Assembly: GCA_019931245.1 (NCBI GenBank)
Contig: JAINDL010000042.1
Span: forward strand, 1-64,000
Direction of reading: 5' to 3'
From: Bryobacteraceae bacterium CoA2 C42
GTDB lineage: Bacteria; Acidobacteriota; Terriglobia; Bryobacterales; Bryobacteraceae
DNA length: 64,000 nucleotides
The position numbers and the translations under genes were made by a program. The first letter of the stretch is position 1. Each line of letters opens with the position of its first letter. The notes beneath the pieces are model-generated. The model worked only from the letters and a program-made list of their open reading frames with translations. It was not told the DNA's origin and did no database searches. Shown here piece by piece: positions 38,272 through 43,252 of the stretch.

Positions 38272-38324
38272 GCCTTCAATCTAGCAGTCTCAGATTGCAA
38301 TCGCGTAACGATCCTCAACCTCTC

Positions 38325-39638
38325 ATGAATCGCCGCCAAGCCCTCGCCCTCACTGCTCTCAGCTACTCCCGCATCCTCGGCGCCAACGACCGCCTGCGCA
38401 TGGGCTTTATCGGCCTCGGCAACCGCGGCGACCAGGTGCACGATGGCTTTCTCGAGTTCGGCGATGCGGTCACCACGGCCATCTGCGACCTCCGCGACGA
38501 CTACCTCGACCTGGCGGCCCGCAAATCCCGAGCCACCCCGGCGCGCTACAAGGACTACCGGAAGCTGCTCGAGGACCGTAACGTCGACGCCGTGGCCATC
38601 GCCACGCCCGACCACTGGCACGCCCTCATGATGATCGACGCCTGCCGCGCCGGCAAGGACGTCTATGTCGAAAAGCCGCTTTCGCTCACCGTGGCCGAAG
38701 GGAGGCGGATGGTTCAGGTGGCCGCCGAAACGAAGCGCATTGTGCAGGTCGGCATCCAGCGCCGCAGTTCGAAGATGCTCGCCGAGGCTGTCGCCTACCT
38801 GCGGGGCGGGGAACTGGGCCACATTACCGTCGCCCGCGGCTTCCACGTGCAGAACGAAGCCCCGAACGGCATCGGACTCGCGCCCGACAGCGCGCCGCCC
38901 GATGCCGCGATGTGGGAGCAGTGGCTCGGCCCGGCGCCCAAGGTGCCGTACAACCGCAACCGCTCCTTCTACAACTTCCGCTGGTTCTATGACTACTCCG
39001 GCGGCCAGATCACCAACTTCGGCGTGCACTACATGGACATGCTGCGCTGGGCCTGCCAGAAGCGTTCGCCGCGCTCGGTGGTCGCCATGGGCGGGCGCTT
39101 CGCCGTGCGGGACAACCGGGAGGTTCCGGATACCTGCGAGGTGCTCTGGGACTTCGGCGACATGATGATGGTCTTCGTGCAGTACAACGCCAATGCCGCC
39201 CCCGCCGTGGCCGCGCGCGGGGCGGAGATGGAGATCCGCGGTACCAAAGGCACGATGTATATCTACAGCAACAAATGGGAGGTGGTGCCCGAGCGCTACA
39301 CCGACCTGCTGTTCGGCCAGCGCACCCCGCTCGACCGGGAGAGCGAGCGCGGCTACAACCCCTCGAAGAAAGCCACCATCGCCGCCCGGAGCATGGAGGG
39401 CGCCAGTTCGACGCCGCCGCACGTGCGGAACTTTATCGATGCGGTCAAAGCCCGCGTGGCGCCCAACTGCCCGGTGGAGGAGGGACATCTGTCGACGGCG
39501 AATACGATCCTCGGCCACATCTCGCTCCGCACCCGGGCTTTGCTCGACTGGGACGGCAACGCCGAACGGTTCACCAACAACGAGGCCGCCAACAAACTGC
39601 TCAGCTACAAGTACCGCGCGCCCTACCGGCTCGGCTGA
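38325..39638 (+). CDS. Gfo/Idh/MocA oxidoreductase with Tat-like signal
   Basis: ATG 38325 gives 437 residues beginning MNRRQALALTALSYSRILGA, a twin-arginine-like leader, as is common for acidobacterial and planctomycete members. The Rossmann motif MGFIGLGNRGDQV, the EKP motif (GKDVYVEKPLSLTVAEGRRM) and the C-terminal domain (WFYDYSGGQITNFGVHYMDM, with the catalytic-type His) are present. These enzymes oxidise or isomerise sugars with tightly bound NAD(P). Its 3' end overlaps the stop of the Cys-rich small gene on the other strand by 16 bp. Confidence 0.9.
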   Translation: MNRRQALALTALSYSRILGANDRLRMGFIGLGNRGDQVHDGFLEFGDAVTTAICDLRDDYLDLAARKSRATPARYKDYRKLLEDRNVDAVAIATPDHWHALMMIDACRAGKDVYVEKPLSLTVAEGRRMVQVAAETKRIVQVGIQRRSSKMLAEAVAYLRGGELGHITVARGFHVQNEAPNGIGLAPDSAPPDAAMWEQWLGPAPKVPYNRNRSFYNFRWFYDYSGGQITNFGVHYMDMLRWACQKRSPRSVVAMGGRFAVRDNREVPDTCEVLWDFGDMMMVFVQYNANAAPAVAARGAEMEIRGTKGTMYIYSNKWEVVPERYTDLLFGQRTPLDRESERGYNPSKKATIAARSMEGASSTPPHVRNFIDAVKARVAPNCPVEEGHLSTANTILGHISLRTRALLDWDGNAERFTNNEAANKLLSYKYRAPYRLG

Positions 39639-39793
39639 CGTTCGAGCGGAATGTCGCACTGGCAGCAATCGCTGCAGCGCCGGCATTTCTGACAGCGATG
39701 GAGTACGCAGGTGTCCTTCGTGCACCACACGCAAAGGTCACGCGACGGGTCGCCGCAGATGGAGCAGACAAAGGCGAGCGTGCTTGCGTTCAA
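39623..39793 (-). CDS. Cys-rich small protein (56 aa), putative zinc-binding
   Basis: The TTG at 39793 shares bases with the stop of the upstream gene (TTGA), with AGGAG seven bases ahead. The product contains CSICGDPSRDLCVWCTKDTC, then LHRCQKCRRCSDCCQCDIP: 11 Cys and 1 His in 56 residues, arranged as pairs, so one or two zinc sites are likely. There is no signal peptide. I know no named family; it loosely recalls B-box/zinc-ribbon mini-proteins. The coupling overlap, the ribosome-binding site and the Cys pattern together make it a real gene despite its size. Its function is unknown, probably tied to the two secreted proteins encoded upstream. Confidence 0.7.
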   Translation of the reverse strand: MNASTLAFVCSICGDPSRDLCVWCTKDTCVLHRCQKCRRCSDCCQCDIPLERQPSR

Positions 39794-40371
39794 TCCTTGG
39801 CTCCTTTCGGCGCCGCGGCGGTCTTTTTGGCCGCCGGCGGCTGCTTGCTCAGGATGCTCCGGCAGCGCTGCGCCTCGGTATCCATGACGTGCAGTTCAGA
39901 TTCGTGGGTGGCGGCGAGGTCCTTCATGTACTGCTCGAGAAAATCCCGGTTGGCGGAGTTCTCATTGGCGATGCCCATCAAGAGGTCAGCCACGGCGGGG
40001 TTTTGGTAGCGGCGTACGCCCGCGGCGAGCGAATTCAGTAGCTGTTCCAGGCCTTGCAGGCGGAAGTAGGTATCCATGGCCAGGCTGAGGCGGTTCGGAT
40101 CCCGGGCCAGCCGCTCAGCCGAGGTCTGCAGATAGCCGAGCGCCTTGCGCGTGTTCTGCCACTGCTGCACGTAGGCCCCCGGGGCGCCATTCTCCTTCCA
40201 CGCCTCCGGATTCAACTCTCCGAGCACCGGCTGCAGCCGGTTGGCCGTGCTCACCAAGGCGGCCAGCTGTTTGCGGGTCTCCCATTCCGGAGGCAAACCA
40301 GCCTGGGCGCAGGCTAGGCCAACGCAGACCAGACCAGTCATCAGGGAGCGGAAAGCGGTTTGTTTGCTCAA
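39790..40371 (-). CDS. Secreted all-helical protein of unknown function
   Basis: This 193-residue protein has a signal peptide (TGLVCVGLACAQA, about 12-24). The mature part is a helical bundle by pattern (TRKQLAALVSTANRLQPVLG, YVQQWQNTRKALGYLQTSAE, LEQYMKDLAATHESELHVMD) with an Ala/Lys/Pro-rich tail (KQPPAAKKTAAAPKGAKD). I do not recognise a named family. It starts 9 bp after the FecR-domain gene stop and its own stop overlaps the Cys-rich gene, so it is the middle member of a three-gene unit. Confidence 0.7.
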   Translation of the reverse strand: MSKQTAFRSLMTGLVCVGLACAQAGLPPEWETRKQLAALVSTANRLQPVLGELNPEAWKENGAPGAYVQQWQNTRKALGYLQTSAERLARDPNRLSLAMDTYFRLQGLEQLLNSLAAGVRRYQNPAVADLLMGIANENSANRDFLEQYMKDLAATHESELHVMDTEAQRCRSILSKQPPAAKKTAAAPKGAKD

Positions 40372-40380
40372 GCTTCCAGT

Positions 40381-41160
40381 TTACAGGGGCGGCGGCGGTG
40401 GTGGTGGGGGGGGCGTCGCTTCCGTATCAGCAGGCCGGCCGCCGCCTGCCGGGACGCCGCCCGTCGGAGAGCCGCCGCCGCGCGGTACCCGCAGCATGAT
40501 GTTGTAGTAGGCGTCGGTAGCCGCCTGCAGGGTGCGCCGCAGGGCGCCGCCCTTGTCGAAACTCTTCTGCGCCAGCGGCTGGTTCTTGTAGACCCGGACA
40601 TACTCGCCCGCGTTCAACAGCTTTGGCTCGCTCGGAGGCAGCAGGGAGTGGCGCACCGCCACCTGGCCCTCATCCACCGTGACCAGCGTCGTCGCATCGC
40701 CGTCTTCGATCTGCACGTCAAACACAGTGCCCCGCACCGAGATCACCGCCGTGGGGGTGGTCACGCGGTTCGGATTCGGCTGGCCGCCAAACTTTTGGAT
40801 GTGCACCTTCACGCGCCCGAGATAGAGGTCGAGCAGATCCTTCCATCCGCCGGCGTTGTTCCGGAAGATGACGCGCGAGTTGGGGTAGACTTCGAAGGTG
40901 CTGCCATCGCTCACCTGAAAAACGGCAAACCCATCGGCCCCGGTGACGATCACCTGCCGGAGATTTACCCAGTCGCCGGGTTGCAAGGCCCAGGGGGTGC
41001 TGTCTTTCAGAACCGAGACCTGCCCGCTACTCTGCATGACCTTCGCCGAACGCTCCCGCTCCGGGGCGAACAGCGAAGGAGCCTGCGCAAACGAAACCCC
41101 CAAGCAGACCGCGCAGAGGGCGGAGAGGCGGAGCGAAGTCGGGGCGAGCAGCAGAAGCAT
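40381..41160 (-). CDS. Secreted FecR-domain protein ending in nine prolines
   Basis: ATG 41160 is chosen because it precedes the signal peptide (LRLSALCAVCLGVSFAQ); the frame continues 35 codons upstream. The 259-residue product has a FecR fold at about 40-180: GQVSVLKDSTPWALQPGDWV, ADGFAVFQVSDGSTFEVYPN, TAVISVRGTVFDVQIEDGDA, TLVTVDEGQVAVRH. Stand-alone FecR proteins in this phylum are secreted and not tied to an iron sigma factor. The C-terminus is Gly/Pro-rich and ends T-P9-L, which would stall ribosomes without EF-P. It heads the unit with the helical and Cys-rich genes. Confidence 0.85.
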   Translation of the reverse strand: MLLLLAPTSLRLSALCAVCLGVSFAQAPSLFAPERERSAKVMQSSGQVSVLKDSTPWALQPGDWVNLRQVIVTGADGFAVFQVSDGSTFEVYPNSRVIFRNNAGGWKDLLDLYLGRVKVHIQKFGGQPNPNRVTTPTAVISVRGTVFDVQIEDGDATTLVTVDEGQVAVRHSLLPPSEPKLLNAGEYVRVYKNQPLAQKSFDKGGALRRTLQAATDAYYNIMLRVPRGGGSPTGGVPAGGGRPADTEATPPPPPPPPPL

Positions 41161-41380
41161 ATACGTGGGGACCCATCCAGGCCTTGACGTCCACTTCTTT
41201 GAGACTACCACGAAGCGGGCTGGACGCGGAATGTCACCTGACATGCAGAGCAGATGGAGGCCCACGCGGGTAACCTGGCAAAATGCTTTTTAGATCAATA
41301 GCTTTGGCCTAGTCCGGTCGATAGATATGGGTAGAATAGAACCAAGGCCTGAGTCAGGCGGAAACATTGTGTTGCAATCC

Positions 41381-43252
41381 ATGCGCCGAGTAACTTTCAT
41401 CCTGGTCGTTTGGCTGGCGCTTGCCGGGGTCTGTCCGGCGCAGTGGCGTCGCCTCGGGAACACGGCGGTCGATCTCCGGTTGTCCGGTCTGGCAACCGGT
41501 CCGATGGATCGTGTCGAGTTCCGGAGCGATGACGGGCGGCTGTTTGCGCGTGCGACCGCCGGCCAGTGGTTTTCTACGGCGGACTTTGAAAGCTGGAAGA
41601 TCGAAGGCGCCGAGCCGATGGCCAGTCCGCTCCCGGCCCCGGTCCCGGACCGCGTGCCCGAGCCCGGCGCCCGGCTGCGTGCCAGTTCGGCGCGAGGGGT
41701 TTTGTACGCGGCCGGCCGCCATGTCTGGCGGTCGGACGATGGCGGCCGCTCGTGGACCAACCTAACCGCATGGGGTCAAACCTCTCTTCTCGGGGCGCCG
41801 GTGGCCGACCTTGCCATCGCGGCGAACGATCCGGCGTCGATTGCCGTGGCCACCGGAACGGGCGTTTGGCGTTCGGCCGACAGCGGTCTCACCTGGACCA
41901 GTTGCAACGCGGCGCTGCCCCATCTGCCGGTCCGCCGGATCGAAGCGCTGCCCCGCGGCTCCCAGGGGGCGCGGATCAGCTTTCTCGCCCCCGCCGCTAC
42001 GGCGGCCCCGGAAGCGGCCTACGAATGGCAACCCGGGGAGCGGACCGCCTGGCGGCCCGCGGGGGGGCCTTCGCCGGCCGCGGCGCGGCGCGAGATCTCC
42101 CGCCGCCTCGGCGCCAGCGTGACGGCGTTTGAACGGCAGGGCGATTGGGCCTATGCCGGCTCGGTCGACGGCCGCCTCTGGACCTCTCTCAACCGGGGCA
42201 CCGACTGGTCGGCGCCCGCCTATCAACCCGGCGCCGCCGTCGAAGCGATCGTGGTCGATGAACGGGACCCGCGCCGGGCGCTGGCTGTCTTCAGCCGCCG
42301 CGCCAACCGCCCCGACCTCACCTCGCCGCCCACGGTCGTCCTCCGCACCCTCAACGGTGGCCTGTACTGGGACGACATCACGGCCAACCTCCCGGAGACG
42401 GCCGCCTTTGGCGTAGCCGCCGACTTCGTCGCGCGCGCCGTCTACGTGGCCACCCTTGGCGGCATCTATCAGGCCGACCTCGCCGCGCCGTCCTGGACAC
42501 TCCTGGCCGGTGGGGGGCTGCCGGCCGCCCCCGTCCTCGATGTCCGCCTCGATCCGGCCGGCAACCAGATCTACGCCGCCGTCTACGGCTTTGGTCTCTA
42601 CACGGTCATCGCACCGCACCGCAACCGCGATCTGCGCGTCGTCCACGCCGCCGACTACGCCGTCCGCCCCGCTGCTCCCGGCGCCCTGCTCAGCATTCTG
42701 GGCGCCCCGGTCACCGAGGTCACCGCCGGCGGCCGGCCGGCCGCCGTGCTGCCCTCCCCGGCGTCCGAAACCCATATCCAGCTCCCCTACGATCTGGCCG
42801 GCAACGGCGTGGCGCTCTCGTTTGTTGCCGCCAACCAGCGTGTCTCGCTCGGTCTCGCCCTGCAGCCCGCCTCTCCCGCCATCTTTGTCGACCCCGATGG
42901 CGCCCCGCTTGCGCTCGACGCCGAATCCGGCGTCCTGCTCGACGCCCGGAATCCGGCCCGCGCTGCCTCCACCGTGCAGTTTCTGCTCAGCGGCCTCGGT
43001 CGCGTCTTGCCGGATTGGCCCGTTGGTCAGGCGGCGCCGCTCGAGAACCTGCCGCGTGTCGTGGCCGGGGTCAATGCCTATCTCGACGGTGTTCCCCTCG
43101 AAGTGCTCCGCGCCACGCTCGCTCCCGGTTATATTGGCTTTTATCTGGTCGAAGTACGCCTGCCCGCTCTCTGCAACCGCGGTCCGGCGGAGTTTCACAT
43201 CGAGGCCGGAAACACCAGCAGTAACCGCGTGCGTCTTCACCTCGAACCGTAA
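41381..43252 (+). CDS. Secreted BNR/YCF48-like propeller with Solibacter-type C-terminal domain
   Basis: ATG 41381 precedes a signal peptide (MRRVTFILVVWLALAGVCPA). The 623-residue product has Asp-box blades (VWRSDDGGRSWTNLTAWG, VWRSADSGLTWTSCNAALP, LWTSLNRGTDWSAPAY) to about residue 410, a sialidase/photosynthesis-stability-factor-like propeller. About 200 residues follow, including APGALLSILGAPVTEVTAGG and ending APGYIGFYLVEVRLPAL, which match the C-terminal domain of the dehydrogenase at 16423-18126. No sialidase catalytic residues are obvious, so a binding or structural surface protein is more likely. The methyltransferase gene starts 22 bp later. Confidence 0.83.
   Translation: MRRVTFILVVWLALAGVCPAQWRRLGNTAVDLRLSGLATGPMDRVEFRSDDGRLFARATAGQWFSTADFESWKIEGAEPMASPLPAPVPDRVPEPGARLRASSARGVLYAAGRHVWRSDDGGRSWTNLTAWGQTSLLGAPVADLAIAANDPASIAVATGTGVWRSADSGLTWTSCNAALPHLPVRRIEALPRGSQGARISFLAPAATAAPEAAYEWQPGERTAWRPAGGPSPAAARREISRRLGASVTAFERQGDWAYAGSVDGRLWTSLNRGTDWSAPAYQPGAAVEAIVVDERDPRRALAVFSRRANRPDLTSPPTVVLRTLNGGLYWDDITANLPETAAFGVAADFVARAVYVATLGGIYQADLAAPSWTLLAGGGLPAAPVLDVRLDPAGNQIYAAVYGFGLYTVIAPHRNRDLRVVHAADYAVRPAAPGALLSILGAPVTEVTAGGRPAAVLPSPASETHIQLPYDLAGNGVALSFVAANQRVSLGLALQPASPAIFVDPDGAPLALDAESGVLLDARNPARAASTVQFLLSGLGRVLPDWPVGQAAPLENLPRVVAGVNAYLDGVPLEVLRATLAPGYIGFYLVEVRLPALCNRGPAEFHIEAGNTSSNRVRLHLEP

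Follow-up and report, generated by a model that had tools for sequence, protein, structure and literature searches.

A short cysteine-rich gene overlapping the end of a helical-protein gene is conserved in one order of Acidobacteriota

Introduction

The window analysed here, a stretch of 64,000 nucleotides from Bryobacteraceae bacterium CoA2 C42, contains a reading frame for only 56 residues, eleven of them cysteines, whose start lies within the end of a gene for a helical protein. The question raised by this locus is whether so small a frame is a gene and, if so, how it is translated and what its product could do. We find that it is a real gene that is easy to overlook. Our main reading, to which we give a probability of roughly 0.45, is that its product is a small cytosolic protein folded by twelve ligands around metal, likely zinc, which would be translated by reinitiation and act as an adaptor made in step with the helical neighbour.

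The locus and its gene order

The cysteine-rich (Cys) gene runs from 39623 to 39793 on the minus strand, with a TTG start and a TGA stop, and was delimited by ORF call, homologues, alignment and pN/pS. A sequence-only reading of the window had proposed a 56-residue frame with this start, had left out its strand and had written down eleven cysteines and their spacing; the frame is present and its translation agrees with both number and spacing. Left out of that reading was a histidine, His32, whose conservation equals that of the cysteines. Read from the sequence, the proposed AGGAG, a Shine-Dalgarno-like (SD-like) element, lies at 39801..39805 (minus strand), 7 nt ahead of the TTG. Likewise, the start was said to share bases with the upstream stop, and the four nucleotides TTGA at 39790..39793 (minus) indeed combine the TTG with the TGA of a 193-residue gene read from 40371 to 39790.

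On the minus strand, going downward from position 41265, the order is thus a gene for a FecR-domain protein (40381..41265; PF04773, E 3.6e-14), the helical-protein gene (39790..40371) and the Cys gene. Divergent from this group, on the plus strand, is a recurring neighbour with a Solibacter C-terminal domain (41327..43252; NCBIfam match to TIGR03437). On the other side, a GFO/IDH/MocA oxidoreductase gene identified by Pfam (38295..39638, plus) is convergent and lies outside the unit; its end and that of the Cys gene share 16 nt.

Conservation and distribution of the gene

A search with the single protein in 101 related genomes retrieved homologues down to about 49% identity within the family and the order. 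When the search was carried out with an alignment of 59 homologues, from which L033 and L061-L066 had been left out as weak and by eye not homologous, a homologue was found in 219 of 257 genomes of the order at E<=1e-4, a count that includes one broken copy; among good-quality genomes a match was present in 139 of 163. In the case of a phylum-wide draw, 6 of 396 genomes matched at E<=0.01. Three of these, with E<=2e-23, are all of this family, and the three at E 0.007 to 0.009 are weak and were taken as chance. A pattern scan of GTDB species genomes gave 212 relatives, and the 80 of them that were listed are all titled Acidobacteriota, with names such as Bryobacterales, Bryobacteraceae, Terriglobia, Candidatus Sulfopaludibacter and similar. 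Phages and plasmids gave no match to the Cys protein, and among 140 pattern matches in IMG/VR none was confirmed as a relative, so that a phage or plasmid origin was set aside.

At the codon level, the core (39 codons) showed a pooled, uncorrected pN/pS of 0.26 over 18 same-genus loci, where pS was 0.73 and thus near saturation, and of 0.32 over all 59 loci. Of the other five frames of the 18 loci, four gave 1.71, 1.09, 1.86 and 1.34 and the fifth, an antisense one, 0.44. Cysteine codons of the core are a mixture of TGC and TGT among the 59 homologues. In-frame stop codons in relatives, which would speak against a gene, were not seen: in each of the 59 aligned homologues the core reads without interruption. 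The one broken copy (G646, L173:1380-1560) lacks the middle of the core and has lost the frame, possibly by an assembly error; in G647, another genome of that genus, the gene is intact. Selenocysteine was also considered and rejected, the in-frame TGA in G077 and G068 being a stop after the core and the match in G096 looking like chance. Altogether, a chance ORF can be rejected because homologues occur in so many genomes of the order, the start overlap described below recurs, SD-like sites precede it and pN/pS is low.

Translation start and the helical partner

A helical-protein gene lies directly upstream on the same strand in 57 of the 59 loci (in L015 only as a fragment at a contig end); the two exceptions are L034, with only 54 nt of upstream DNA, and L035, with another neighbour. 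Start and stop overlap as NTGA in 40 of the 57 loci (18 ATG, 14 GTG, 8 TTG), and a further 15 loci have their start 5 to 24 nt past the NTGA position. The outliers are L031, starting 30 nt before this position, and L030, which has no close start codon. An SD-like 4-mer precedes the start at 40 of 59 loci, compared with 13% of random positions. From its position and from these sites, we infer that ribosomes ending the helical protein may restart at the overlapping NTGA. The coupling behind a helical protein that had been proposed for the window thus holds generally but not universally, since in one family (f2) the Cys gene lies elsewhere and is coupled to a phosphomannomutase gene.

The overlapping frames could also be read as the source of a joint product, in which read-through or frameshifting exports the Cys domain as the tail of the secreted helical protein. 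The Cys frame does extend far upstream without a stop in many loci. We hold this to be very improbable. A stop in the Cys frame stands just before the start in several loci (L018, L019, L025 and L059 among others), and a frameshift fusion is therefore not a conserved product. Furthermore, the 15 starts beyond the NTGA position and the SD-like sites speak for separate initiation, and no in-frame fusion with the helical protein was met among the loci examined, whereas one with a cytosolic-type enzyme was.

The helical family itself is present in 241 of the 257 genomes. In the alignment, which holds 51 of 57 proteins after near copies and one fragment were left out, W58, Y122 and C170 are invariant, the cysteine being part of an EAQRCR motif near the C-terminus that is also seen in the window protein. 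The N-termini, including that of the window protein, look signal-peptide-like by eye. An AF2 model of the window protein is all helical with a pLDDT of 92.4, and structure searches returned generic helical bundles, the best being DGR Avd (Z 13.3, rmsd 2.3, 108 aligned), with the periplasmic region of PilJ at Z 12.0 (rmsd 7.2, 155 aligned). Matches to any one Pfam or NCBIfam family are limited to 3 of the 51 members at most, all of them weak (best E 0.0019). The helical partner is consequently a second conserved family uncovered by Pfam and NCBIfam, alongside the Cys protein.

Regarding co-occurrence, 15 of the 16 genomes that lack the helical gene among the 257 also lack the Cys gene, the exception being G530, and G525 carries two Cys genes, each beside a copy of the helical gene. 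Of the 51 loci with 1,463 nt or more of DNA on the upstream side, 37 have a FecR gene like that of the window ahead of the pair. Gene order and co-occurrence hint that the Cys protein might be a structural, protein-binding adaptor, most often for the helical precursor, for instance before its export.

Losses, relocations and fusions

Two observations loosen the tie to the helical protein. Firstly, 23 of the 241 genomes with a helical gene have no Cys match: every genome of g7 (five), g45 (eleven), g48 and g49 (three), and also G586, G035 and G653. Contig-end fragments account for a few of them, and in G035 and G653 the helical match stops at the contig end. In the g7 loci L177 and L179, the FecR and oxidoreductase genes are retained around the gap where the Cys gene is absent. 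When Cys-gene presence was mapped on a tree of helical proteins (68 rows), five changes were needed, two of them forced by well-supported branches; this tree was made by a quick method from 56 of the 57 helical proteins and 12 others, and 28 of its 65 inner branches are open. As a separate observation, the helical protein of g7 (L177-L179) sits on a long stem branch (1.21). Secondly, in both genomes of family f2 the Cys gene is apart from the helical gene and overlaps a downstream phosphomannomutase gene by ATGA or TAGTG (L035/L219 and L034/L220). Both the losses and the f2 arrangement speak against a role that the helical protein could not do without.

Two species of g23 carry an in-frame fusion of the Cys domain with an acyl-CoA-ligase-like enzyme, and the helical gene keeps its upstream place there (L132:3635-5764 and L154:3818-5764, also L227 and L228). 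In NCBIfam the fused enzymes score best with models of long-chain-fatty-acid-CoA ligases (E 6.3e-139 and 1.2e-136), below the curated cut-offs of these models. A third g23 genome that was examined, G040 (L056), has the short unfused form. The N-terminus of the Cys protein is not signal-like by eye, and because of this and of the fusion to a cytosolic-type enzyme the protein is probably cytosolic.

Downstream neighbours vary between loci. The counts of helical and FecR neighbours given above were made apart from an automatic clustering of neighbourhood ORFs, which long antisense ORFs had obscured. Directly behind the Cys gene, 53 of 114 distinct loci have an ORF of at least 100 aa on the same strand; 37 of these ORFs were scanned with Pfam, the others being judged by eye as likely antisense or spurious. 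Among the 37 were 15 PIG-L deacetylases, 7 glycerophosphodiesterases and 2 phosphomannomutases. PIG-L/BshB-like deacetylases, often with a 4-base overlap, stand behind the Cys gene in L043, L047, L054, L060, L115, L124 and L144 and further in L146, L160, L164, L165, L232 and L233; the BshB1 model matches each of these 13 (best E 9.5e-41), and L043, the one inspected in detail, is under its cut-off. PIG-L as the functional partner was nevertheless set aside, being adjacent in some genera only, and the best match in the genome of the window lies on another contig. Taken together, the f2 arrangement, the ligase-like fusion and the varied neighbours argue for a protein that works in the cytosol and is not tied to one partner.

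A short cysteine-rich ORF whose start overlaps another gene could also be a cysteine-sensing attenuator, a regulatory peptide for which the act of translation matters and not the product. In f2 the Cys gene does lead another gene; otherwise it trails its conserved partner, and in the window the next downstream gene lies on the other strand. Since, in addition, residues other than cysteine are conserved, pN/pS is as low as given above and a fusion to an enzyme exists, this explanation is highly improbable.

The Cys/His core

The twelve candidate ligands are C10, C13, C21, C24, C29, H32, C34, C37, C40, C43, C44 and C46. All twelve positions are Cys or His in each of the 112 distinct cores compared. 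These cores stem from 146 loci, 80 of which were found with patterns that themselves include some of these cysteines. Ten cysteines are invariant in these cores and the eleventh is Cys or His, so that the variable cysteine positions that would speak against the family were not found. The conservation argument is carried by the alignment of 59 homologues, which was assembled without cysteine-containing patterns, because so many of the 146 loci were found with such patterns. In this alignment every ligand up to C44 is invariant and C46 is kept at 90% or more. Outside the ligands, S17, T25, D27 and D42 are invariant, and F8, I12, K26, R39 and S41 reach 90% or more. One ungapped spacing, C-x2-C-x7-C-x2-C-x4-C-x2-H-x-C-x2-C-x2-C-x2-CC, is common to 59 of 59.

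The single swap among the 112 cores, Cys46 to His in L057, is one that a metal site would tolerate, albeit as a single case. Twelve ligands would by arithmetic, as opposed to measurement, be enough for three zinc sites. With its cysteines and histidine kept in place across most sequenced relatives, the 56-residue product is probably a small folded metal-binding protein; the conserved ligands, the C46H swap and the fusion suggest that it folds around metal, most likely zinc, in the cytosol. Behind the core, some members (L011, L014, L052 and L224) extend into an acidic tail rich in proline, roughly 75 to 84 residues long.

Metal binding could alternatively mean a buffer of the metallothionein type, whose cysteines store or deliver metal and which has no fold for binding a partner. 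A share of 20% cysteine in 56 residues is in line with this, and so are the PIG-L-type deacetylases, 15 of the 37 scanned downstream ORFs, which are metal enzymes. Metallothioneins are small proteins with a high share of cysteine in flexible clusters of variable spacing. The Cys protein resembles them in size and cysteine share, but its spacing is identical in 59 of 59 members, free of insertions and deletions, and residues other than cysteine are conserved. This points to one defined fold and against a buffer, which we regard as possible but unlikely, and the protein was not placed in the metallothionein class.

Fold and comparison with known families

Neither for the window protein nor for the 59 members did Pfam, NCBIfam, PHROGs or PDB sequences contain a family describing the Cys core, and the earlier statement that no family is known for the pattern stands within these libraries. 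Single-member matches to Trypan_PARP (E 0.0019) and to an autotransporter model (E 2.1e-5) are probably due to proline-rich tails, and PHROGs matches of E 0.034 and worse, again to single members, were set aside as weak. A literature search over titles and the beginnings of abstracts, with few subscription papers, gave nothing on this protein family. The Cys protein is thus a real, lineage-restricted small family outside the searched libraries, carried by most sampled genomes of one Acidobacteriota order. Its strict core, overlapping start and natural fusion offer handles for testing the roles of tiny cysteine-rich proteins.

The close C-x2-C-x2-C run resembles ferredoxin motifs, and an iron-sulfur protein, in which the C-x2-C-x2-C-x2-C run carries a cluster, would agree with the strict conservation of the cysteines; one of the 59 members even matches the NCBIfam iron-sulfur model TIGR00273 weakly (E 0.38). 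We nevertheless judge this quite unlikely, as the fourth cysteine is preceded by x2 spacing and not x3, the Pfam matches of the 59 members include no iron-sulfur family, and the top rows of the weak fold comparison belong to zinc fingers.

The AF2 model of the Cys protein is modest (pLDDT 78.4, pTM 0.52; 53.9 to 78.4 over five models). A Foldseek search with it gave no significant match (best E 0.35), with RING domains and chains of the UBR4 complex among the weak rows. In a second structure comparison, for which the guidance of the tool itself is that a Z under 8 may reflect a mere common arrangement, the best row was the Rim2 finger (Z 3.8, rmsd 4.1, 47 aligned), and others were the Slp4 finger (Z 3.7, rmsd 4.5, 44 aligned), the EEA1 FYVE domain as the highest FYVE row (Z 3.3, rmsd 3.1, 43 aligned), the PML B1-box (Z 2.1, rmsd 4.3, 39 aligned), HIT (Z 2.1, rmsd 4.4, 38 aligned) and, at Z of about 2, AN1, PML RING and MYND. 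According to the accessible text of one study, RING-like, HIT, MYND, PHD, AN1 and FYVE domains are cross-braced binuclear treble clefs (PMC4999995). Most rows of the second comparison are domains of these kinds, and the predicted fold weakly resembles such cross-brace zinc fingers. The ligand order fits a binuclear RING-like cross-brace treble clef, in a model that is modest and has a best Z of 3.8: the first half, C-x2-C-x7-C-x2-C-x4-C-x2-H, reads like one, and the second half, C-x2-C-x2-C-x2-CC-x-C, would supply the rest of the second site and a further, third one. In the case of zf-HIT (PF04438), none of the 59 members matched and 0 of 61 genomes of the order had any match over the cut-off, and this class was rejected.

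A three-metal design is described, in the accessible part of its source, for the UBR-box, a eukaryotic domain with three zincs on a RING-like treble clef that is circularly permuted and has one ligand shared by two zincs; its authors found no prokaryotic UBR-like protein (PMC4506424). The twelve ligands of the Cys protein would likewise allow three metals on a RING-like core; it has no sequence match to this domain in the libraries searched. The UBR4-complex chains in the Foldseek output had E 1.8 and worse (at E 1.8, TMq 0.25 and rmsd 8.4 over 41 columns, at an unspecified place in the chain), and UBR chains were not among the rows of the second comparison. If a three-metal cross-brace were true, the Cys protein would be a prokaryotic example of the design described for the UBR-box in that text (PMC4506424). 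More speculatively, and in our view improbably, it could be a three-metal RING-like mini-domain, so far met in one Acidobacteriota order only, whose translation is coupled by reinitiation to that of a secreted helical protein and whose dedicated task is the handling of this exported protein. It would be reused as an add-on to cytosolic enzymes (the phosphomannomutase operon and the ligase-like fusion) and be, in its design, a prokaryotic counterpart of the three-zinc UBR-box.

Haloarchaeal zinc-finger u-proteins are described, again in the accessible text, as carrying two C(P)XCG motifs, in one protein four, with slight variants allowed (PMC11241148). Like them, the Cys protein is very small, cysteine-rich and predicted to bind metal, and has one CXXCG (C10-G14); unlike them, its other C-x2-C pairs are without Pro and Gly and its candidate ligands number twelve. 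The same source reports several predicted zinc u-proteins to be zinc-free, which AF2 cannot tell, and warns that small proteins predicted to bind zinc may instead hold cobalt, nickel or no metal at all (PMC11241148).

B-box domains show Cys/His pairs in the same order, with gaps of 2-8-2-4-2 in those of the order and 2-7-2-4-2 in the Cys protein, which is also a small module and is joined to an enzyme in one genus. Unlike a B-box, it is mostly stand-alone and has four more cysteines than a two-metal site needs. None of the 59 members matched PF00643 at E<=10 (HMMER filters drop most matches above 0.1), and one matched ANCHR-like_BBOX at E 8.7. An hhalign comparison with 19 bacterial B-box domains of the order, taken from 20 B-box loci, gave a probability of 3% and a score of 15.0, with at least 10 of 50 Cys-fixed shuffles scoring higher. 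Because of this direct profile comparison the Cys protein was not filed as a B-box. B-box domains do occur elsewhere in genomes of the order (L188-L207, G000:C44), in 49 of 100 at E<=0.01 and in 39 of 100 over the cut-off.
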